From a virus, in IMG/VR virus record IMGVR_UViG_3300024344_000110, positions 1 to 26,314 of that record: a stretch of DNA of 26,314 bases; one strand, written 5' to 3'. Shown piece after piece: positions 1,630-26,314 of this stretch. How positions within the stretch are numbered: position 1 is the first letter of the stretch; every line of letters begins with the position of its first letter. The notes under the pieces are model-generated. The model saw nothing but the letters and a program-made list of their open reading frames with translations, had not been told where the DNA came from and searched no databases. The position numbers and the translations under genes were made by a program.

Positions 1630-2331
1630 TTAAACATCTTGCACAAATCCTGTATTGTCTTTTAATGCTCGACCCTTCGCATAAAGGCCCGCAATTCCTC
1701 TTGGGTCTTTAAACCTTAAATCTGTTTTATCTGCATTAAAGACTTTATAATTTAAAAATTTTTTAGGTAGTTTTTTATTTCTAAAAACAGCGCTCACGTT
1801 GCCGCCACGTTTTAATATATCAAGCGCTTGCGCTCTATTATCTTCATTTAAGCTATATGTAAGATGATAATTTTTTGGATATTCACCATTAACAAATTTT
1901 AATGCTCGTTTGTAAATTTTTGTGTAGTCGTACCATTTGACTTTTGGAAACTCTTCATATAGCCCGTAAATATTCCAATCTATATCACTCGTGCCGTTTA
2001 AACGTATTGCGGGTTTAAATCCTTTTTTCTTACATCTTAAAATATGTCTTTTTATTTCTTCTCTTAATTGTTTTAAAAAACTTTCACGTTCTATAAAATA
2101 CCATTTTGTTTTATTAATACGTCCTAATTGAACTGAACCCATTTGACCCCGCCCCGCCGTGTTTAAACAGCTTGCCATACATCCCGCGCTTGCCATAGCG
2201 CAAGTATTAAAGCCGCTTGTCCGTTGTGGCGCTAAATATAAAATTGCGGTCATATATTTATATTTTCGACCTTTAATTGTTTTGGCGTTGTTATCTATGT
2301 TAAGAAGTTTTTTTGATTTGTATAATTTCAT
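1630..2331 (-). CDS. gp88-like phage protein with Cys-x6-Cys-x3-Cys motif, 233 aa
   Basis: This resembles the phage gene product 88 type family, whose function is unknown. Visible landmarks are a strand-rich N-terminus with MTAILYLAPQRTSGFNTC, and cysteines 44, 51 and 55 followed by LNTAGRG. Barrel-like stretches RLNGTSDIDW (110-119), YDYTK (134-138) and YSLNE (159-163) come next, and the protein ends in KDNTGFVQDV. The evenly spaced strand motifs suggest a TIM-barrel-like enzyme that uses a Cys-bound metal or cluster. The cysteine spacing does not fit the classical radical-SAM CxxxCxxC. The ATG directly follows the TAA of the preceding gene, and no ribosome-binding site is evident, so translation is probably coupled. 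It is the largest gene of the minus-strand block. The family call is from memory and the enzymatic idea is inference. Confidence 0.7.
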   Translation of the reverse strand: MKLYKSKKLLNIDNNAKTIKGRKYKYMTAILYLAPQRTSGFNTCAMASAGCMASCLNTAGRGQMGSVQLGRINKTKWYFIERESFLKQLREEIKRHILRCKKKGFKPAIRLNGTSDIDWNIYGLYEEFPKVKWYDYTKIYKRALKFVNGEYPKNYHLTYSLNEDNRAQALDILKRGGNVSAVFRNKKLPKKFLNYKVFNADKTDLRFKDPRGIAGLYAKGRALKDNTGFVQDV

Positions 2332-5232: not shown

Positions 5233-5245
5233 CAAATAGCCGAAA

Positions 5246-5291
5246 CCAGCGGATTTAATTCTGCTGGTCTATCTATCGTGGTTGATAGATA
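5246..5291 (+). other. Two tandem hairpins in the leader of the 96-aa gene
   Basis: CCAGCGGA (5246-5253) pairs with TCTGCTGG (5260-5267) across a 6-nt loop with one G-U pair. TATCTATC (5270-5277) pairs perfectly with GATAGATA (5284-5291) across GTGGTT. The stems are only 2 nt apart and lie between two co-transcribed genes. There is no U tract, so this is more likely an RNA structure affecting stability or translation than a terminator. Confidence 0.5.
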
Positions 5292-5333
5292 CTGACGATG
5301 GCAGACCCATTAATTATAACTAGAAGGAAAATC

Positions 5334-5892: not shown

Positions 5893-7362
5893 ATGCAAAT
5901 TGATCTAGATAAAATAAAAAAACTCCCACCTGATATAAGAAAAGATTTCATGAAAATGGCTGTAAAGCTTGATGAAAAGAAAAAGATATCCAAAGTTAAA
6001 GATGACTTCCTGTCATTTGCCAAACACATGTGGCCAGAGTTTATCGAAGGTCGACACCATAAAATTATTGGAGATAAGTTTAACCAGATAGCACAAGGCA
6101 AAATCAAGAGATTGATCGTCAATATGCCGCCAAGACATACAAAGTCCGAGTTCGCCAGCTCCCTGCTGCCCGCTTGGATGATCGGTAGAAACCCGAAACT
6201 AAAAATTATTCAAACGACCCACACCGGAGAACTAGCTATTAGATTCGGGCGTAAAGCTAAAACACTAATGGACACAGAAGATTATAAAAAAGTCTTTGAG
6301 ACAAGATTGAGGGAAGACAGTCAAGCAGCGGGTCGCTGGGAAACAGCACAGGGCGGTGAATACTTTGCATCTGGTGTAGGTGGAGCAATTACTGGTCGGG
6401 GTGCAGATTTATTAATCATTGACGATCCACACTCAGAGCAAGATGCGCTTAACATGACAGCATTAGAGCGAGCGTATGAATGGTATACATCCGGTCCACG
6501 TCAAAGGTTGCAGCCAGGTGGTGCGATCGTTTGTGTAATGACAAGATGGAACGTTAAAGATCTAACAGGTCAATTATTAAAACATCAAAAAGAAGCAAAA
6601 GCAGATCAGTGGGAGCTGATAGAGTTTCCTGCAATCATGCCTTCGAATAAACCAGTATGGCCTGAGTATTGGCAGCTAAAAGAATTAGAAACAGTTAAAG
6701 CATCACTATCAATTGGTAAGTGGAATGCACAATGGATGCAGAACCCAACTAGTGAAGAAGGCGCAATCATCAAAAGAGAATGGTGGAACGTTTGGGAGAA
6801 AGATGAAATGCCAGCTTTAGAACATGTCATACAATCATACGATACTGCATTCATGAAAAAGGAAACAGCCGACTATAGTGCAATTACAACATGGGGTATC
6901 TTTAGAGAATCTGAAGACAGCCCGCAGCAGTTAATATTGGTTGATGCATTAAAAGGTAGATACGAGTTCCCCGAACTTCGTCGCGTTGCAAAAGAACAAT
7001 ATGACTATTGGAAACCTGAAACGGTATTAATTGAAGCTAAAGCCAGTGGATTGCCACTAACCTACGAGCTTAGAAATATGGGGATACCGGTAGTTAATTT
7101 CACACCGTCAAAAGGAAACGATAAGCATGCCCGTGTAAATGCAGTTGCACCTTTGTTTGAATCTGGTATGGTGTGGGCTCCTGAAGAAAAGTTCGCAGAA
7201 GAGGTTATTGAAGAGTGTGCAGCTTTTCCATACGGGGATCATGATGACTTGGTTGATAGTATGACCCAAGCTGTTATGCGGTTTAGACAAGGAGGGTTGG
7301 TACCGCATCCTGAAGACTATGAAGAAGAAAAAATTATAAAAACAAAAAGAACTTATTACTAA
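5893..7362 (+). CDS. terL: Terminase large subunit (ATPase and nuclease)
   Basis: This is the motor that cuts concatemeric DNA and pumps it through the portal. The ATPase domain shows a Walker A-type MPPRHTKSE (78-86), a Walker B LLIIDD (173-178) and a coupling-type MTRWN (216-220). The RNase H-like nuclease domain shows SYDTAF (D317), LIEAK (E381) and GDHDDLVDS (D451/D452/D455). The length of 489 aa is normal for the family. Unusually, there is no Shine-Dalgarno sequence: the ATG follows TTTTTTTCAAA, and an in-frame TAA lies close upstream. The next in-frame ATG (codon 20) is an alternative start. The stop overlaps the next gene (TAATG). No small terminase subunit is recognisable beside it. 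Confidence 0.95.
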   Translation: MQIDLDKIKKLPPDIRKDFMKMAVKLDEKKKISKVKDDFLSFAKHMWPEFIEGRHHKIIGDKFNQIAQGKIKRLIVNMPPRHTKSEFASSLLPAWMIGRNPKLKIIQTTHTGELAIRFGRKAKTLMDTEDYKKVFETRLREDSQAAGRWETAQGGEYFASGVGGAITGRGADLLIIDDPHSEQDALNMTALERAYEWYTSGPRQRLQPGGAIVCVMTRWNVKDLTGQLLKHQKEAKADQWELIEFPAIMPSNKPVWPEYWQLKELETVKASLSIGKWNAQWMQNPTSEEGAIIKREWWNVWEKDEMPALEHVIQSYDTAFMKKETADYSAITTWGIFRESEDSPQQLILVDALKGRYEFPELRRVAKEQYDYWKPETVLIEAKASGLPLTYELRNMGIPVVNFTPSKGNDKHARVNAVAPLFESGMVWAPEEKFAEEVIEECAAFPYGDHDDLVDSMTQAVMRFRQGGLVPHPEDYEEEKIIKTKRTYY

Positions 7363-10695: not shown

Positions 10696-10907
10696 TGCCA
10701 GGAAAAGAAATAAAAGGAAGAAGTAAAAGAGTAATGTATAAAAATGGATCAGGTAAAGATACACATGTAACTAAAGATGGACGCACAGTTAAAAAAGGTC
10801 TTTATTATTATATGAACAGAGCCAAAAAAAGAGGGACTAGTAAACCTGGAAAAGGTTCTGTAACTGACAAAGCTTTAAAGGAATCAGCTAAGACTGCTAA
10901 AAAATAA
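10695..10907 (+). CDS. Small basic protein of unknown function, 70 aa
   Basis: This is strongly basic throughout (MPGKEIKGRSKRVMYKNGSG, and KKGLYYYMNRAKKRGTSKPG), with an alanine-lysine helical tail. Such proteins in late phage operons may be packaged with DNA or help head assembly, but no family is recognised. The ATG overlaps the upstream stop (TAATG), and AGAGAGGAAAA in the preceding C-terminal codons serves as the ribosome-binding site. Confidence 0.7.
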   Translation: MPGKEIKGRSKRVMYKNGSGKDTHVTKDGRTVKKGLYYYMNRAKKRGTSKPGKGSVTDKALKESAKTAKK

Positions 10908-11185
10908 TGGCTGAAAATCCAATTTCAAGAAATAAAAAAAACTACAGATCTACAAAATCTGGAGCGGGTATGACACGAGCCGGTGTCGCTGCCTATAGAA
11001 GAGCAAATCCCGGCTCAAAACTAAAAACAGCTGTGACAGGAAAAGTGAAGCCTGGATCAAAAGCTGCTAATCGTAGGAAGTCATACTGCGCTAGATCACT
11101 AGGACAATTAAAACGGTCATCAGCAAAAACAAGAAACGATCCAAACTCACGTATTCGTCAAGCTAGAAGAAGATGGAAATGTTAA
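10907..11185 (+). CDS. Arg/Lys-rich small protein, possibly DUF6321-like, 92 aa
   Basis: The core AVTGKVKPGSKAANRRKSYC and the ending RIRQARRRWKC match from memory a conserved family of small phage proteins of unknown function, often labelled DUF6321. The label is uncertain. Conserved Cys (near 72 and the last residue) and the high positive charge suggest nucleic acid binding or a virion role. The start overlaps the upstream stop (TAATG), and no ribosome-binding site lies within the usual distance, so coupling is likely. It closes a run of three basic mini-genes. Confidence 0.7.
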   Translation: MAENPISRNKKNYRSTKSGAGMTRAGVAAYRRANPGSKLKTAVTGKVKPGSKAANRRKSYCARSLGQLKRSSAKTRNDPNSRIRQARRRWKC

Positions 11186-11186
11186 T

Positions 11187-11423
11187 ATGATGGACCCATT
11201 AACTGTTGTTTCTAAAATACAAAAAAACATGAGGGACAACTTACAAAGAATCGGCGACACCATGATTAGTGGTGGAGTTGACAACATGGAAAAATATCAG
11301 TATATGTTAGGACAAGCAAGAACTTATCAATATCTATTACAGGAAATCTCTAACCTGCTAGAAGAAAAGGAGCAAAAAAATGAAGGAAACGTCGTCGGAA
11401 TCAACGGAAGTACCAAAAATTAA
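11187..11423 (+). CDS. Small helical protein of unknown function, 78 aa
   Basis: The protein starts MMDPLTVVSKIQKNMRDNLQ. A helical segment with KYQYMLGQARTYQYLLQEIS and a short acidic stretch follow. The pattern is common in marine phage head modules, but I know no function. The ATG follows the upstream stop by one base. ATG 11187 and ATG 11190 are both possible. The last 44 bases overlap the co-chaperonin gene in a different frame, and the AAGGAG of the co-chaperonin lies within this gene. Confidence 0.7.
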   Translation: MMDPLTVVSKIQKNMRDNLQRIGDTMISGGVDNMEKYQYMLGQARTYQYLLQEISNLLEEKEQKNEGNVVGINGSTKN

Positions 11424-11838
11424 ATTTGGTCTTCAAGACAAATACAAAAAAGAAGCTAAAGGTGAACCAGAACCTTTAAATCCAGAAAATATTAAAAAAC
11501 AAAAAGAACAGCTGCCCGATCCTAGTGGCTGGCGACTACTTGTGTTACCATTTACACCTAAAGAAAAAACTAAAGGTGGTATAATTATTGCACAAGAGTC
11601 TTTAGAAAAATTAAGAATTGCAACTAACTGTGGTTACGTTTTAAAAGTAGGGCCATTAGCTTATTTTGACAAAGAAAAGTTTCCAACAGGAGCTTGGTGT
11701 AAAAAAGGAGATTGGGTAATTTTTGCTCGTTATGCAGGATCAAGATTACCTATCGAAGGCGGCGAAGTCCGTCTATTAAATGACGACGAAGTTTTGGGTA
11801 CAATAAGTAATCCAGAATCCGTGCTGCATAATATTTAA
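11380..11838 (+). CDS. GroES-type co-chaperonin, 152 aa
   Basis: Residues 47-152 read as a GroES fold: a first strand WRLLVLPF (51-58), a mobile loop TPKEKTKGGIIIAQES (59-74) with GGIII in place of the usual GGIVL, then GYVLKVGPLAY (85-95), KKGDWVIFARYAGSRL (108-123) and a final strand VRLLNDDEVLG. GroES is about 97 residues, and the extra N-terminal 45 residues here are charged and probably flexible. The protein should cap host GroEL, as T4 gp31 does for its capsid protein. It sits directly before the scaffold-like and capsid genes. AAGGAG lies 7 nt upstream of the ATG. The start overlaps the preceding gene by 44 nt. Confidence 0.88.
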   Translation: MKETSSESTEVPKIKFGLQDKYKKEAKGEPEPLNPENIKKQKEQLPDPSGWRLLVLPFTPKEKTKGGIIIAQESLEKLRIATNCGYVLKVGPLAYFDKEKFPTGAWCKKGDWVIFARYAGSRLPIEGGEVRLLNDDEVLGTISNPESVLHNI

Positions 11839-11855
11839 CATAGAAGGAGATAACT

Positions 11856-12845
11856 ATGCCAGAAACAGAAGAAAACAAACAAGATCTAGTTGACATTGAT
11901 ACATCGGGTCCCGGTGCTGAAGTTGAGCTAGAAGAAGAAAAAGTAAAACAAGTAGTAGAAGAAAAAACAGAATCTGAAAAAGAAACTGTTGTAGAAGAAA
12001 CTAAACCAGTTGAAACAACTGAGGTAGAAGAAACTAAAGAAGAGAAAAAAGAAACAAGCAACGAGAAGCAAGAAACTAAAAAAGAAGAACTAGAGCAATA
12101 TAGTGAAGGCGTTCAAAAAAGAATTGCAAAACTAACTAAAAAATGGCGTGAAGCAGAAAGACAAAAAGAAGCTGCTTTAGAATATGCTAAAGGTGTGCAA
12201 GTTGAACAAGAAACTTTAAAAAATAAATTATCAACTATTGAGCCAAATTATGTAAGTGCTATGGAAGGTAGAGTTATTTCTGGTCTTCAAGCAGCACAAT
12301 CTCAATTAGCAAAAGCTAGAGAAGATGGAGACATAAACGCTGAAGTGCAAGCACAAAAAATGATAGCGAGATTAGGCGTAGAAGAAGCAAGAGTTGCAAA
12401 TTTAAAAAAACAAACTGAGTCTAAACCTGCAGAAGTTAAAACTCCTACATTAGATCAAGCGATTGCACCTAAACAAGCTAAACCCGATCCAAAAGCTGAA
12501 GAGTGGGCTGAAAGAAATCCTTGGTTTGGTCAAGATTCTGCTATGACTTATACTGCTTTTGATCTACATGACAAATTGACTAAAGAAGAAGGCTTTGATC
12601 CTAATTCAGATGAATACTATACTGAAGTAGATCGTAGAATGAAGCTTGACTTCCCACACAAATTTGCTAAAACTGAACCAAAGGAAACGACTAAACCTAC
12701 TCAAACTGTAGCGTCAGCTACGCGGAGTGTAAAACCTGGTCGCCAAACTGTGAGACTCACTTCATCACAAGTAGCAATTGCTAAAAAATTAGGAGTGCCA
12801 CTAGAAGAATATGCGAAACAACTAAAAATCACGAAGGAGGCATAA
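11856..12845 (+). CDS. Scaffold-like head assembly protein, 329 aa
   Basis: The first 85 residues are extremely rich in Glu, Lys, Thr and Val (for example VEEKTESEKETVVEETKPVE). Residues about 85-190 form a charged coiled coil (RIAKLTKKWREAERQKEAAL). A Trp-containing middle (EEWAERNPWFGQDSAMTYTA) and a short basic C-terminal helical end follow. This architecture, the size and the position before the capsid gene are typical of internal scaffolds that shape the procapsid and then leave. GAAGGAGAT precedes the ATG. A fused protease domain is not evident, and none is seen elsewhere in the window. Confidence 0.72.
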   Translation: MPETEENKQDLVDIDTSGPGAEVELEEEKVKQVVEEKTESEKETVVEETKPVETTEVEETKEEKKETSNEKQETKKEELEQYSEGVQKRIAKLTKKWREAERQKEAALEYAKGVQVEQETLKNKLSTIEPNYVSAMEGRVISGLQAAQSQLAKAREDGDINAEVQAQKMIARLGVEEARVANLKKQTESKPAEVKTPTLDQAIAPKQAKPDPKAEEWAERNPWFGQDSAMTYTAFDLHDKLTKEEGFDPNSDEYYTEVDRRMKLDFPHKFAKTEPKETTKPTQTVASATRSVKPGRQTVRLTSSQVAIAKKLGVPLEEYAKQLKITKEA

Positions 12846-12849
12846 GCAT

Positions 12850-13311
12850 ATGAGTACAGATAAAATAAAAACTTCCCGTGCGAGTCAAACAAGAGCTAAA
12901 ACAGCTAAAAAAACTGTTTGGACTCCACCATCATCTTTAGATGCACCCCCTGCACCAGACGGGTACCATCACAGATGGATAAGAGCCGAGACTATGGGTT
13001 TTGATGATACAAAAAACATGGCAGGTAAATTAAGATCAGGATATGAGTTAGTAAGAGCTGATGAATACCCAGATCAAGATTATCCAGTTCTGGATCAAGG
13101 TAAATACAAAGGGGTCATCGGAGTTGGCGGCCTATTGCTGGCTAGGATATCTAACGAGCTTGTTAAATCGCGTGAGGAATATTTTAATAACCTTACAAAA
13201 CAAAAAGACGAAGCGATTGATAACGATCTTCTGAAGGAACAGCATCCAGGTATGCCGATCAATAATGATCGACAGACTCGTGTAACCTTCGGTGGTACAA
13301 AAAAGAGCTAA
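12850..13311 (+). CDS. Head-module protein of unknown function, 153 aa
   Basis: A basic, probably disordered N-terminus (KTSRASQTRAKTAKKTVWTP) leads into DAPPAPDGYHHRWIRAETMG. A compact domain with LRSGYELVRADEYPDQDYPV and a glycine-rich strand (YKGVIGVGGLLLARIS) follow, then a charged tail. I have seen similar proteins beside capsid genes of marine phages, but no function is established to my knowledge. AAGGAGG precedes the ATG. It is probably a minor head or assembly protein, by position only. Confidence 0.72.
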   Translation: MSTDKIKTSRASQTRAKTAKKTVWTPPSSLDAPPAPDGYHHRWIRAETMGFDDTKNMAGKLRSGYELVRADEYPDQDYPVLDQGKYKGVIGVGGLLLARISNELVKSREEYFNNLTKQKDEAIDNDLLKEQHPGMPINNDRQTRVTFGGTKKS

Positions 13312-13380: not shown

Positions 13381-13953
13381 ATGGCAAACCAAGACGCAGC
13401 CTTTGGATTAAAACCCCTAGGCAAAATTGGAGGGTCACCTGATAACAACGCAGCTACTGAATACGAAGTAGCAGCTTGCGCTTCAGCTTTTGCTCAAAAC
13501 GACCTTATGGTTGCTTTAGCAGCAGGAACAGTTGGAATAGGCGCAGCTACTGATAATGGAGTTCTTTTAGGCTCTTGTCAGGGTGTGTTTTTTACAGACT
13601 CTTCAACAAGTAAACCAACCTTTGCTAATCACTTAGTTGCTTCAAACGCAGCTACTGATATCAAAGCGTTTATTACTGACGATCCGCATCAAGTTTATGA
13701 AGTACAATCGGATGCATCAGGCGCAACACAACAACTAGACGTTTTCACAAACGCTGATGTTGCTGTTGGAGCAGGTGTAACTCCGCATTTTGTTTCTAAA
13801 ACTGAAATTACGGATACTCAATCAACAACTACAGCTAACTTGCGAATTATCGGAGTTTCTGATGATCCTGACAATAGCGATTTAACATCTGCTAATTGTA
13901 ACTTTAAAGTGATCATTAACGAACACTTCTATATGACCGCAACTGGCGTATAA
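13381..13953 (+). CDS. Virion structural protein, head decoration candidate, 190 aa
   Basis: The sequence is Ala/Thr/Asp-rich and mostly beta. It opens MANQDAAFGLKPLGKIGGSP, a start that I associate with abundant marine phage structural proteins encoded beside the capsid gene. It ends NFKVIINEHFYMTATGV. AAAGGAG and a hairpin precede the ATG, suggesting high expression. The position immediately before the capsid gene suits a decoration or minor head protein. The family function is not certain. Confidence 0.72.
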   Translation: MANQDAAFGLKPLGKIGGSPDNNAATEYEVAACASAFAQNDLMVALAAGTVGIGAATDNGVLLGSCQGVFFTDSSTSKPTFANHLVASNAATDIKAFITDDPHQVYEVQSDASGATQQLDVFTNADVAVGAGVTPHFVSKTEITDTQSTTTANLRIIGVSDDPDNSDLTSANCNFKVIINEHFYMTATGV

Positions 13954-13975: not shown

Positions 13976-14881
13976 ATGGCTATATCAAGAGGACAACTAG
14001 TTAAAGAACTAGAGCCAGGTTTGAATGCACTATTCGGCTTGGAATATAACAACTATGCTAATGAGCATGCGGAAATTTTCGACACTGAAAACAGTGACAG
14101 AGCTTTTGAAGAAGAAGTTATGTTATCTGGTTTCGCAAATGCACCAATCAAAGCTGAAGGAACTTCAGTTTCATTTGATAATGCACAAGAAACTTTCACA
14201 GCTCGTTACACACATGAAACACTTGCACTAGCATTCGCGATTACTGAAGAAGCAATCGAGGATAACTTGTATGACAGACTTGCGTCTAGATATACAAAAG
14301 CTTTAGCAAGATCAATGGCTAACACTAAACAAGTGAAAGCTGCTAATGTGTTAAACAACGCGTTCAGTTCATCTTCTGCAGGCGGTGATGGTAAAGAGCT
14401 TTGTGCTACTGACCACCCAATCGCTTCAGGAACAGAGCAGAATGAATTATCTACTGCGGCGGACCTTAACGAAACATCATTGGAGCAATCTTTAATAGAT
14501 ATCGCTGCAATGACTGACGAAAGAGGTCTTAAAATTGCTGCTAAAGGTACTAAGTTAATTATACCTTCAGCTTTGCAATTTACAGCTGAGAGATTAATGA
14601 AATCTTCTCAAAGAGTTGGAACAGCTGATAATGATATCAATGCAGTTGTGTCAAAAGGAATGATTCCACAAGGTTATACTGTGAACCATTACTTAACTGA
14701 TACAGATGCGTTTTTCATTAAAACAGACGTGCCTAATGGTCTAAAACATTTTGTTAGAGCACCGATGAAAACATCTATGGAAGGCGACTTTACAACTGGT
14801 AACGTAAGATACAAAGCTAGAGAGAGATATTCTTTTGGATTCTCAGACTGGAGAGGTATTTTCGGATCACCGGGAGCATAA
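13976..14881 (+). CDS. Major capsid protein (HK97-fold, Mu gpT-like), 301 aa
   Basis: The protein forms the icosahedral shell. It resembles the Mu gpT-like capsid group. Landmarks are AEIFDTENSDRAFEEEVMLS (30-50, N-arm region), a long helix with ALAFAITEEAIEDNLYDRLA and a glycine-rich loop before ELCATDHPIASG. TKLIIPSALQFTAERLMKSS follows, then YTVNHYLTDTDAFFIKTDVP, and the ending is NVRYKARERYSFGFSDWRGI. The length of 301 aa suits an unprocessed HK97-fold protein. GGAGAATAAAAT precedes the ATG, and a GC-rich hairpin follows the stop. Scaffold and co-chaperonin genes lie just upstream. Confidence 0.92.
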   Translation: MAISRGQLVKELEPGLNALFGLEYNNYANEHAEIFDTENSDRAFEEEVMLSGFANAPIKAEGTSVSFDNAQETFTARYTHETLALAFAITEEAIEDNLYDRLASRYTKALARSMANTKQVKAANVLNNAFSSSSAGGDGKELCATDHPIASGTEQNELSTAADLNETSLEQSLIDIAAMTDERGLKIAAKGTKLIIPSALQFTAERLMKSSQRVGTADNDINAVVSKGMIPQGYTVNHYLTDTDAFFIKTDVPNGLKHFVRAPMKTSMEGDFTTGNVRYKARERYSFGFSDWRGIFGSPGA

Positions 14882-22470: not shown

Positions 22471-23493
22471 ATGTCAACTTACAGACAAGTAAAAGGTTAC
22501 AATATAAAAAAAGTATCAAGTGATCCTTCTAACGTTAAAGAAGGACAAGTTTGGTATAATAGTTCTACTCAAAAATTAAATCTTGGACATCGTCTTGAAT
22601 CATGGTCTAGTGGTGGTAATTTAGGAACCGCTGGAACAGGTGTAGGCGGAGCTGGAACACAAACTGCTGGGCTAGCTTTTGGTAGAAGACAACCACCTGC
22701 AAGTCCAAACTACGTAGGTTTAACAGAAGAATATAATGGATCAAGTTGGACTGAAGTAAATAATTTAAATACAGGAAGAGCATACTTATCTGGCTGTGGA
22801 ACACAAACTGCAGCAATTGCGGCTGGAGGACACACAGGAGGAACGACTACTGATAAAACAGAATCTGAAGAATATGATGGAACCAATTGGGCAGAAGGAG
22901 ATGATTTAAATACAAATCGAAGACAGTATTCTATGTTTGGAATACAGACAGCGGCAGTTGGAGCTGGTGGATATGCAAGCCCAGGAAGTCCTGGACCACT
23001 TGGCGGTTTTTTAGTTAAAACAGAAGAATATAATGGTTCAAGTTGGACTACAGTTGAAGATTTACCAACAGCATTAAATAACCATGGAGCTGCGGGAACG
23101 TTAACAGCAGGTCTTGTATTTGGTGGTGAAGGAGGATCACCTCACCCAGAAGGAGCAGGAAATGTAGTTAGTTTAACTTGGGAATATGATGGAACTAATT
23201 ATGCATCTGGAGGTGCTTTAAATACAGGAAGAGGAAGTTTACTTACTGCAGGTGGAACACAAACTGCAACATGGGCAGCAGGTGGAGGAACACCTCCTGG
23301 AGCTTCAACTAATGTTGAACATTATAATGGCTCTACTTGGGTACTAGCACCTAGTATAGCATCTGGAAGAACTTTTGCTGGTCCAGCAAATGCAGCAGCA
23401 CAACCAGCAGGAATGATTTTTGGTGGAGGAAATTCTAATGCAACAGAAGAATTTTCATCTGCAGTATCAACAAGATCGGTGGATGTATCATGA
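22471..23493 (+). CDS. Kelch-like beta-propeller adhesin, six repeats, 340 aa
   Basis: The first 45 residues (SSDPSNVKEGQVWYNSSTQK) form an anchor shared with the two following paralogues. Six repeats of about 45 residues follow. Each has a GTQTAxxAxGG strand, then a TEEYNGSSWTEVNNLNTGR-like segment, with the sixth degenerate (AAQPAGMIFGGG). This is the pattern of kelch or galactose-oxidase-like propellers, and six blades make a closed domain. No catalytic residues are evident, so a glycan- or protein-binding receptor-recognition role is likely. GGAGAATAGT precedes the ATG. The stop overlaps the next gene (ATGA). Confidence 0.8.
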   Translation: MSTYRQVKGYNIKKVSSDPSNVKEGQVWYNSSTQKLNLGHRLESWSSGGNLGTAGTGVGGAGTQTAGLAFGRRQPPASPNYVGLTEEYNGSSWTEVNNLNTGRAYLSGCGTQTAAIAAGGHTGGTTTDKTESEEYDGTNWAEGDDLNTNRRQYSMFGIQTAAVGAGGYASPGSPGPLGGFLVKTEEYNGSSWTTVEDLPTALNNHGAAGTLTAGLVFGGEGGSPHPEGAGNVVSLTWEYDGTNYASGGALNTGRGSLLTAGGTQTATWAAGGGTPPGASTNVEHYNGSTWVLAPSIASGRTFAGPANAAAQPAGMIFGGGNSNATEEFSSAVSTRSVDVS

Positions 23494-25397
23494 CGGATTA
23501 TAAAAATATACACGGGAAAAGAGTTAAGTTTTTTACAAGTGATTTGGATAATACACAAGCAGAAGGACAAATATTTTATAGTGGTATAGACGCAACTGCA
23601 AGCGCCGTAGGTGCTTTTAATTTTAAAACAGCAGTAGCTATTTCTGCGTGGTCTAGTGCTTCACCATTTCTTACTGGAAGAACAACAGCTGGTGGAGCAG
23701 GGACTCAAACAGCGCATATAGGTTTTTCTGGATACTTATCAACTAATACACCAACTAATGTTACTGAAGAATATAATGGATCAGGTTGGTCAAATGGTGG
23801 TAATATGAACAATGGAAGAAAAGACCCCGCTGGAGCAGGCACACAAACTGCAACACTTGCTTTTGGTGGAGATGAAAGACCTCCAGGATCTAATAACGTA
23901 GCTCTTACAGAAGAATACAATGGAACTTCATGGTCCCCGCAAAATAATATGAATACAGGAAGAACTTCTGTAGGGTCTGCAGGAACTCAAACTGCAGGAC
24001 TTGGATTTGGAGGACCGGGTAGTTCAACGGCTACAGAAGAATACGATGGAACAAGTTGGACAAATAGTGGGGCTTTAAACTCTGGTAGAAATGGTATTAT
24101 TGGAATTGGCACTCAAACAGCCGCTGTAGGAGCTGGAGGATATACACCAGGTTATTTAGCTAATGTAGAACATTATAATGGATCAACTTGGACAGCAGCC
24201 ACTGCATTACCATCTGCTCAAGGAACTGGTGGTGGTGCTGGTATACAAACAGATGGTTTAATTTTTGGAGGATATGTTCCTCCAGGTCATACCGTAACAA
24301 ACAGAACATTAAATTATAATGGAACTTCTTGGACTGTTTCTCCAGCTACATTAGGAACTGCAAGAGGGTTAAGTGCTAATACGAGTTCAGCACCTTCTAG
24401 TGCAGCAATAGCCATGATGGGAGAAACAACTCCCACTAATACTTTAACAGAAGAATTTAATACAACTGCAAGCACAATTACAGGTGCTGCATGGGCAAGT
24501 GGTGGAAATATGCCTACTACTAAACTTAATGGTGGTCAAGGAATTGGAACAGAATTAGCAGCAGCAGTTTTTGGTGGAAACCAAACAACTATTACTTATC
24601 CTTATGTAAATACAACATATGAATATGATGGTTCATCTTGGGGCAGTGGTGGAAATATGAATAACACTGGATCATCTCATGGTGCTTTTGGAACTCAAAC
24701 AGCGGGAACTAAAATAGGTTCTTACATGTATCCACCAAATGTATCTACAACAAATGTTGAAGAGTATGACGGTAGTTCTTGGACAGCTAAACCAGCAATG
24801 AGTCAAACAAGATATGGAGCAGGTGGCGCTGGAATATCTACAGCAGGATTAGCTATGGGTGGAACAGCTAAATCTCCAGTAGTTGCTCTTACTGCAGTTG
24901 AAGAGTATGATGGTGAGGGATGGACTTCTGGAGGAGCCTTACCAGCTCATCATGAAAATTTTGCTTCAGGTGGAACTCAAACAGCGGCAATAGTTGCAGG
25001 AGGTCAAGACCCTGCTCCTCAATCAAATGGAGCTTCTGTTACTTCATACGATTATAATGGTTCAAGTTGGACATCAAATCCAAATATGAGTATAGATAAA
25101 GTTTATAATTTTGGAAATGGTGGTCCTGTTTCACAAACATCTTTTTTATCTGCTACAGGAAATACTGGTCCTGGAACAGCATCAAACAATTGTGAATTAT
25201 TTGATGGAACAAGTTGGGCTACAGCAGCAAGTGTTTCAACAGCAAGAAGTCAACACATGAATGCTCAACACGGCACTACGGGCACAAATGGAGCACTTAT
25301 AGCTGGTGGTAGACCACCTCCTACAGGAGTAAATACTTCTGAAGTATTTACAGCTGAAACAACAGCAGTAAATTTAAAGACTATAACAGATAGTTGA
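23490..25397 (+). CDS. Double kelch-like beta-propeller adhesin, twelve repeats, 635 aa
   Basis: The N-terminal anchor (IHGKRVKFFTSDLDNTQAEG, then QIFYSG) is homologous to that of the neighbouring genes. Twelve repeat strands can be counted (GTQTAHIGFSG, GTQTATLAFGG, GTQTAGLGFGG and so on). A linker near residue 340 (AAWASGGNMPTT) separates two sets of six, so the protein probably folds as two six-bladed propellers. Blades 6, 11 and 12 are degenerate, as expected at domain closure. It overlaps the previous gene by 4 nt. The likely role is receptor binding. It seems to be a duplicated version of the 340-aa protein. Confidence 0.8.
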   Translation: MTDYKNIHGKRVKFFTSDLDNTQAEGQIFYSGIDATASAVGAFNFKTAVAISAWSSASPFLTGRTTAGGAGTQTAHIGFSGYLSTNTPTNVTEEYNGSGWSNGGNMNNGRKDPAGAGTQTATLAFGGDERPPGSNNVALTEEYNGTSWSPQNNMNTGRTSVGSAGTQTAGLGFGGPGSSTATEEYDGTSWTNSGALNSGRNGIIGIGTQTAAVGAGGYTPGYLANVEHYNGSTWTAATALPSAQGTGGGAGIQTDGLIFGGYVPPGHTVTNRTLNYNGTSWTVSPATLGTARGLSANTSSAPSSAAIAMMGETTPTNTLTEEFNTTASTITGAAWASGGNMPTTKLNGGQGIGTELAAAVFGGNQTTITYPYVNTTYEYDGSSWGSGGNMNNTGSSHGAFGTQTAGTKIGSYMYPPNVSTTNVEEYDGSSWTAKPAMSQTRYGAGGAGISTAGLAMGGTAKSPVVALTAVEEYDGEGWTSGGALPAHHENFASGGTQTAAIVAGGQDPAPQSNGASVTSYDYNGSSWTSNPNMSIDKVYNFGNGGPVSQTSFLSATGNTGPGTASNNCELFDGTSWATAASVSTARSQHMNAQHGTTGTNGALIAGGRPPPTGVNTSEVFTAETTAVNLKTITDS

Positions 25398-25437
25398 TTT
25401 ATGATATTAATAAGCTATAAAAGGAAGGAGGATTAAT

Positions 25438-25767
25438 ATGGCACTATTTATATACGGCACAGCAAACAATACCGGAAAAGGATTTTTTACTCATGAAGAT
25501 AGATTAAACTTTTTCTTAAGAGGTTATTCAGGGCACGATGGATCTAATTATGTAGATACATGGGTTATTGGTAACAATGAAAAAGGAGCACTTTGGTTAG
25601 CTGAAAAAAGTGGAACCGAAAAAACTAAATCAGAAGCACAAGCTTTAGTTAAAGCATCTGATGATCTAGCCAGAACAGCTTGGGATAATGATAATGTTAG
25701 CGGTGAATCTGCAGATGAAAAAATTGCAAGAATTGGTGCAAAGCCTGGTTTCATAACAATCCCCTAA
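25438..25767 (+). CDS. Small protein of unknown function between kelch genes, 109 aa
   Basis: The protein begins MALFIYGTANNTGKGFFTHE. A mixed region (NFFLRGYSGHDGSNYVDTWV, then NNEKGALWLAEKSG) follows, then a charged helix (SEAQALVKASDDLARTAWDN) and a short end. It is not kelch-like. AAGGAGG precedes the ATG. Placed between adhesin genes, it may be a fibre chaperone, a connector or an independent morphon. I recognise no family. Confidence 0.72.
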   Translation: MALFIYGTANNTGKGFFTHEDRLNFFLRGYSGHDGSNYVDTWVIGNNEKGALWLAEKSGTEKTKSEAQALVKASDDLARTAWDNDNVSGESADEKIARIGAKPGFITIP

Positions 25768-25778
25768 AGGAATTTTAA

Positions 25779-26314
25779 ATGTCTACATATGAAGAATTAA
25801 AAGGACTGAAGGTTAAATATTTATCTTCTGATACTTCAGGAGATAGAATACAAGAAGGTGAAGTCTTTTATAATTCTTCTGATTTTAATCTTAAATCTTT
25901 TATAGCCACTGCTGCTTGGCATTCTGGTGCTAATATGTCTAATTCTAGAGATTCTGCAGCAGGAGGATGTGCTGCACCTACAGCAGCAGGAATAATTTTT
26001 GGTGGAGGAGATAGCACAGGTCATTTAGCTAAAACAGAAGAATATAATGGTTTAGGTTGGGGTTCTGGTGGAGATTTAAATACAGCAAGAGAAATTTTAG
26101 GAGGTGCAGGAACTCAAACTGCAGGTTTAGCTTTTGGTGGGCAAAAAGGAAGTCCTAACGCAAATGCAAATGAATCAGAAGAATATAATGGATCAAGTTG
26201 GACTGAAGGAGATAATCTAAACACAGCAAGATATATAGCAGGTGCAGGAACTCAAACAGCTGGATTAGGTTTTGGTGGTTATTCAATACCTGAAACTCTT
26301 CGAGCACATTCAGA
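25779..26314 (+). CDS. Third kelch-like adhesin (5' part; runs off the window)
   Basis: The frame is open from the ATG at 25779 to the window end, 178 full codons. AAAGGA lies 7 nt upstream. The N-terminus (EELKGLKVKYLSSDTSGDRI, then EGEVFYNSSDFNL) is homologous to the anchors of the two preceding kelch genes. At least three repeat strands are visible (APTAAGIIFGG, GTQTAGLAFGG, GTQTAGLGFGG), with EEYNGSSWTEGDNLNTAR between. The length and blade number beyond the window are unknown. Confidence 0.8.
   Translation, partial: MSTYEELKGLKVKYLSSDTSGDRIQEGEVFYNSSDFNLKSFIATAAWHSGANMSNSRDSAAGGCAAPTAAGIIFGGGDSTGHLAKTEEYNGLGWGSGGDLNTAREILGGAGTQTAGLAFGGQKGSPNANANESEEYNGSSWTEGDNLNTARYIAGAGTQTAGLGFGGYSIPETLRAHS

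Follow-up and report, generated by a model that had tools for sequence, protein, structure and literature searches.

A phage-encoded GroES with a lengthened mobile loop and a conserved, clade-specific N-terminal extension in a head-building gene block

Phage co-chaperonins and the head module of the window

T4 gp31 is the well-studied comparison for phage head modules that keep a private GroES. According to the available text of its structural comparison with GroES, the mobile loop of gp31 comprises 22 residues as against 16 in GroES, the resulting cage is about 8% larger, and the roof segment is lacking (PMC6318259). Both gp31 and RB49 CocO are working co-chaperonins, and in T4 the phage lid can be essential for the capsid protein, for which size may not be the sole reason (available text of PMC3012670). 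Among the pelagiphages, the GroES co-chaperonin is one of 13 core genes of the HTVC023P-type phages, a type delimited by a PolA at least 45% similar to that of cultured phages, and the available text of that study does not describe a tail or a loop of this GroES (PMC9599517). Likewise, the accessible portions of the open-licence full texts that we searched contain no description of either feature. While a pelagiphage GroES as a core gene is already known, the modestly new elements reported here are a longer mobile loop across a wide head-module family and a conserved tail that is specific to one clade.

The window analyzed here is a stretch of 26,314 nucleotides from IMG/VR virus record IMGVR_UViG_3300024344_000110, probably belonging to a phage family that is very common in the sea and carries its own GroES inside the head-building gene block. 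A small gene is followed by GroES, a scaffold-like gene, two genes without annotated function and the capsid gene (Table 1).

Table 1. Head-module genes of the window and segments of its GroES gene; positions are those of the 26,314-nucleotide window.
Feature	Position	Strand	Basis or remark
Terminase large subunit	5893..7362	+	Profile matches
Portal protein, 826 aa	7641..10121	+	Profile matches
Small upstream gene, 78 aa, phrog_32603 (function not annotated)	11187..11423	+	PHROG match
Ribosome-binding site AAAGGAG before the ATG at 11380	11366..11372	+	Sequence; kept in relatives
GroES/Cpn10 co-chaperonin gene, 152 aa	11380..11838	+	Complete ORF, ATG start; Cpn10 and PHROG 3188 profile matches, fold matches
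Extension part 1, residues 1-15	11380..11424	+	44-nt overlap with the end of the upstream gene (to 11423), other frame; pN/pS 0.39, lowered pS 0.41
Extension part 2, residues 16-30	11425..11469	+	Predicted disordered; motif P12 K13 .... L18 .. K21 Y22 enters from part 1
Extension part 3, residues 31-46 (EPLNPENI...QLP)	11470..11517	+	Predicted ordered, helix 37-44; pN/pS 0.32
Mobile loop region, residues 59-85	11554..11634	+	Tripeptide I68-I69-I70, then 14 residues to Gly85 (cellular GroES 10)
Roof segment, residues 91-110	11650..11709	+	20 residues vs 19 in cellular GroES
Scaffold-like protein, 329 aa, phrog_28737 (function not annotated)	11856..12845	+	Weak similarity to phrog_8865 (head scaffolding), E 6e-4; conserved position
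Head-module gene, 153 aa, phrog_36003 (function not annotated)	12850..13311	+	PHROG match
Head-module gene, 190 aa, phrog_37556 (function not annotated)	13381..13953	+	PHROG match
Major capsid protein, 301 aa, 32.8 kDa	13976..14881	+	Profile and sequence matches

The window gene is ordinary in kind, being a phage co-chaperonin. Pfam Cpn10 (PF00166) matches residues 48-142 of its product with 40.6 bits (cut-off 21.1), and PHROG 3188, 'co-chaperonin GroES', scores 64 bits and is the sole PHROG at E up to 0.1. The protein carries the hydrophobic tripeptide directly after Gly-Gly (GG-III) that marks a GroES, and its AF2 model adopts the GroES beta-barrel, with pLDDT of 91-95 in the ten-residue blocks of the core outside the mobile loop and 66-72 within it. 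GroES chains, including GroEL-bound ones, are the top fold matches of the model (Foldseek E 1.9e-7; VIA-align Z up to 9.8); the lower VIA-align rows were alcohol dehydrogenases with a common barrel and were treated as fold background. The ATG of the window gene has AAGGAG 7 nt upstream, and the same element lies 4, 7 or 10 nt ahead of the chosen start in 80/80 loci of the first relative search (L002-L081). Since the window gene offers no further ATG ahead of the core, the N-terminal extension of about 45 residues is very probably translated. The initial identification of a phage GroES so extended, beside scaffold and capsid genes, was borne out in its domain match, its secure start and its neighbors. 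A start was chosen for all 327 loci; the later counts are restricted to genes that are complete and sequences that are distinct, namely 194 phage proteins and 76 coding sequences. Across these 76 coding sequences the Cpn10 core has a pN/pS of 0.11, indicating strong constraint, and because the tripeptide is intact as well, the sequence argues for a working GroEL lid.

The named phage closest to the window by both capsid and GroES is 023Pt_psg01 (79.5% and 69.5% identity, respectively), followed for GroES by HTVC027P (60.5%), DSL-LC04 (53.4%) and HTVC023P (49.0%). For the capsid protein, the lake phage DSL-LC04 (75.7%) is as near as HTVC027P (75.6%) and HTVC023P (75.9%), and for GroES it is nearer than HTVC023P. 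Candidatus Pelagibacter HTCC1062 was the culture host of the HTVC phages, whereas for the window phage the host is inferred. No DNA polymerase match was found among the 19 window ORFs searched, which are part of the ORFs of the 26.3-kb record. The same GroES gene occupies the same slot before a scaffold-like gene in HTVC027P, HTVC023P and 023Pt_psg01, and Roseobacter phage CRP-902, Planktothrix phage Pag-Yong1, Caulobacter phage RW and Manatee Spring phage also have GroES in this slot, before a gene in the scaffold position (six records).

This arrangement extends well beyond the named phages. Of the 313 loci that could be tested, 310 have a scaffold-like match no more than 1.5 kb downstream of GroES, and of 205 loci tested for the capsid, 204 have a match 1-5 kb downstream; the counts are summed over groups, include ten named phages and contain many loci that are close kin and not independent. 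Recognition of the other neighbors was less complete, some groups lacking a near query: the small upstream gene was recognized in 4/49 loci of the L086 group, and the portal gene in 163/236 testable loci overall and 0/57 of the L087 group. According to the gene tables of 14 named phage records, GroES sits in the head slot in 12 and elsewhere in two. Profile searches of 14 related phage records detected Cpn10 in all and Cpn60 (PF00118, GroEL) in none, and therefore such a lid would need the host chaperonin.

Two distant capsid relatives, one of them assigned to an archaeal host, have a head slot without GroES (alignment A1 recovered one of the two). The idea that GroES is absent from phages of archaeal hosts was rejected, as a whole-record search located Cpn10 elsewhere in both. 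In a virus assigned to Methanomicrobiales (L376, BK063670.1), GroES lies at 627-983 on the minus strand, near the terminase gene and outside the head slot, and its loop is of normal length by eye.

The mobile loop and its relation to T4 gp31

Comparison with cellular GroES revealed a shared core fold and a shared III tripeptide (profile-profile probability 99.5%), together with two differences. The first concerns the start: in all 32 sampled cellular genes the nearest ATG stands just 1-3 residues ahead of the core, as against about 45 in the window. The second concerns the mobile loop, where the tripeptide is separated from the next conserved Gly by 10 residues in 32/32 cellular proteins and by 14 in the window. 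Among 194 distinct phage proteins, this spacing is 14 in 182, 15 in 11 and 10 in one, so that the loop is 4-5 residues longer past the tripeptide in 193/194 phage proteins and in 0/32 cellular ones. The same lengthened loop of 14-15 residues is present in CRP-902, Pag-Yong1, RW and Manatee Spring phage; the single phage protein with a loop of normal length (L233) may be another kind of GroES. The cellular sample comprised 30 genes drawn from the class of a MAG titled Alphaproteobacteria, that MAG's own gene and one from a SAR86 MAG; the class label rests on the MAG title. The class draw covered 58 genomes, 53 of which gave a match, and the 30 loci rank among its top scorers, which biases the sample toward typical GroES. 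The MAG titled SAR86 (G002) contains, besides its own GroES, four phage-type GroES genes (L334, L336-L338) on 3-9 kb contigs, which points to phage contigs within the bin.

The tripeptide itself is unremarkable. The first-pass annotation had singled out the GGIII loop as unusual, which did not hold up, given that III occurs in 31/32 sampled cellular GroES (the SAR86 one has IVL). In the window clade, III is found in 41 of 68 distinct proteins, and the rest have ILI, IIF, IIM, VIF, LII, ILF and, once, IFY. In the L086 group, which holds the Planktothrix-type GroES, the third position is Lys or Arg in 32/33 distinct proteins (IFK, LFK, IIR, IIK etc.), as against Ile or Leu in the 32 cellular proteins.

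The suggested likeness to T4 gp31 stands in part. Both proteins are phage co-chaperonins with a longer mobile loop (for gp31, available text of PMC6318259), and gp31 structures are among the fold matches of the window model (2cgt, Z 7.8; 1g31, Z 7.0). However, in an alignment judged by eye the extra residues of gp31 lie mainly before the tripeptide and those of the window family after it, because of which the two lengthenings look independent. Furthermore, the roof segment is present in the window protein, a statement about its length only since the AF2 model has no strands at this position, and is absent from gp31 (PMC6318259, available text). Sequence comparison revealed no close kinship: the best PHROG is 931 for gp31 and 3188 for the window protein, and a profile built from seven gp31 sequences yields 0.1 bits for the latter. 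At 111 aa, gp31 is without a tail of the window type, and gene 31 does not adjoin the capsid gene in the T4 stretch examined. Descent from the gp31 lineage was considered and rejected, as hhalign places gp31 nearer to cellular GroES (probability 85.9%) than to the window family (17.3%). A 'QLP' arm and a 'PEGFC..GD' stretch are common to T4 gp31 and some proteins of the window family, the latter not being kept across the seven gp31 proteins.

The N-terminal extension

The first-pass annotation would have been undermined had the extension been absent from all close relatives; it is present in all 81 that were collected (80 IMG/VR loci and phage 023Pt_psg01), and the protein length is 149-158 residues in 82/82 complete genes of the window clade, window included. 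In 77 of the 80 loci a core search peptide is present and no extension search peptide occurs, and therefore the conservation of the extension is no search artefact. The pN/pS values computed over the 76 distinct coding sequences, 0.39 for the part that overlaps the upstream gene and 0.43 for residues 16-46, are consistent with purifying selection about four times less strict than on the core. Residues P12, K13, L18, K21, Y22, E31, P32, L33, N34, P35, I38, L45 and P46 are each at least 95% conserved, while the linker at residues 24-30 differs in length among relatives. The AF2 model leaves residues 1-30 mostly disordered and is confident over residues 31-50 (block pLDDT means 88 and 93), including the helix 37-44; a comparable helix (29-38) is predicted with lower confidence in an HTVC023P-type relative that is 50% identical.

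Within the disordered part, the motif PK....L..KY is nearly invariant in the window clade. The pattern LxxK[YWF] occurs in 65/65 distinct window-clade tails (mean of 1.0 in shuffles) and in 4/5 HTVC027P-type tails, but in 0/25 of the HTVC023P type; where the junction pattern misfits (L088, L089, L091, L230 and some CRP-901-type proteins), some tails were cut arbitrarily or wrongly. In line with these counts, HTVC027P and 023Pt_psg01 carry PKIK....L..KY and HTVC023P does not. Among more distant phages that share this gene order, including CRP-902, Pag-Yong1, RW and Manatee Spring phage, tails differ in length and sequence, and the L090 group has only 7-8 residues ahead of the core junction. As this group is nearly tail-less, the basic function does not require the tail, which is, on comparative grounds, a clade-specific add-on.

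Searches with the extension returned no similarity to PDB sequences at E up to 5, none to PHROGs, and only GroES itself among the ORFs of the window and four related loci. A partial Mantel analysis of the co-divergence of the tail with five neighbors (41-69 loci) gave similar values for all (partial r 0.29-0.47), the highest for the overlapping small upstream gene, and singled out no partner.

Possible roles of the loop and the extension

We propose that the protein is a phage GroES that caps host GroEL in infection and serves the folding of head proteins, its tail motif docking a head protein and its loop altering the seating of the lid, a proposal to which we would give somewhat better than an even chance. 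The protein would act as a heptamer on host GroEL, and its conserved place before the scaffold-like gene suggests head proteins as clients, the capsid protein or its partners being the likeliest. With its four additional residues, the loop may change how the lid is seated on GroEL or retained by it. In a heptamer, the disordered tail would be present in seven copies per ring, and its PK....L..KY motif could keep the scaffold, the capsid protein or the product of the small upstream gene close to the folding cage, while helix 37-44, which adjoins the core, would serve as the tail base. The tail is best read as a flexible tether with a candidate short binding motif, and the extension may, as suggested earlier, deliver the capsid protein or set specificity. 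Several observations weigh against this proposal: the two distant capsid relatives carry Cpn10 outside the head block, the motif is absent from HTVC023P-type tails, the tail is nearly missing from the L090 group, the extension is under weaker constraint than the core, and the co-divergence analysis names no partner. Two small features open to testing, the loop insertion of the collected proteins and the tail motif of the clade, can help to tell a bigger cage from a targeted lid.

The bigger cage is the first alternative. Here, as in gp31, the longer mobile loop would lift the lid and enlarge the cage for a phage client, with the tail being secondary. The near-universal insertion in the phage proteins (193/194, against 0/32 cellular) agrees with this explanation. 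A bigger cage is, however, not obviously required for the 33-kDa capsid protein, because its 32.8 kDa falls within the generally held capacity of the normal GroEL-GroES cage. The loop of gp31 is likewise longer (22 vs 16 residues) and its cage about 8% larger (available text of PMC6318259), yet its lengthening lies mainly on the other side of the tripeptide (by eye), and the roof segment that gp31 lacks is kept here at 20 residues, as against 19 in cellular GroES. Taken together, we regard retuning of the cage in the manner of gp31 as unlikely.

Alternatively, the tails may face the interior of the cage and alter its wall or volume to suit the client. Seven tails of 5.3 kDa each would make a substantial lining, and the motif is conserved. 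Their joint volume was estimated with a standard mass-to-volume factor. In a cage of about 194,000 cubic angstrom (available text of PMC6318259), seven inward tails would take up roughly 45,000 and so achieve the opposite of an enlargement, and we consider such a role of the tails quite unlikely.

The extension could also be a by-product of gene overlap, the upstream start keeping translation coupled to the small gene before GroES. The GroES gene overlaps this small gene by 41-65 nt in 80 of the 81 window-clade loci measured, window included, and pS is lower in the overlapped part than in residues 16-46 (0.41 vs 0.57), in agreement with such an origin. However, just residues 1 to about 15 overlap in the window, and residues 16-46 are themselves constrained (pN/pS 0.43), with L18, K21, Y22, E31-P35, I38, L45 and P46 each at least 95% conserved. 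As a full explanation, the overlap is already contradicted by the sequence pattern of residues 16-46, and we hold it to be very improbable. Finally, it is very unlikely that the protein has left chaperonin work and become a structural or assembly factor of the head, as its conserved place in the head block might suggest, given a Cpn10 core with pN/pS 0.11, a hydrophobic tripeptide in the window clade, and the precedent of gp31 and RB49 CocO as working co-chaperonins (available text of PMC3012670).

The proposal of a host-GroEL lid that docks head proteins can be widened to a large head lineage that spans pelagiphages, freshwater phages and Roseobacter phages and has a built-in, self-targeting lid, in which the loop insertion would retune host GroEL and clade-specific tails would hand over the head protein. 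This wider version is speculative and on balance rather unlikely; if true, folding and head assembly would be coupled at the chaperonin in that lineage.

Several further features were observed in the window around the head module. A type II hammerhead ribozyme is encoded at 5238-5310 (+), upstream of the terminase gene and overlapping the beginning of the ORF at 5298, and matches Rfam RF02276 over the full model length with 48.2 bits (gathering score 37). The gene at 10907-11185 (+) encodes a basic 92-aa protein with DUF6321 (PF19846) that aligns with several longer PHROG profiles at their C-terminal ends, and the gene at 1630-2331 (-) encodes a Gene product 88 family protein (PF17338, 164 bits). 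Two adjoining genes at 22471-23493 and 23490-25397 (+) share the repeat family phrog_27227, and by eye similar repeats continue in the open ORF at 25779 (region to 26312, +), so that 22471-26312 possibly holds duplicated fibre-like genes.
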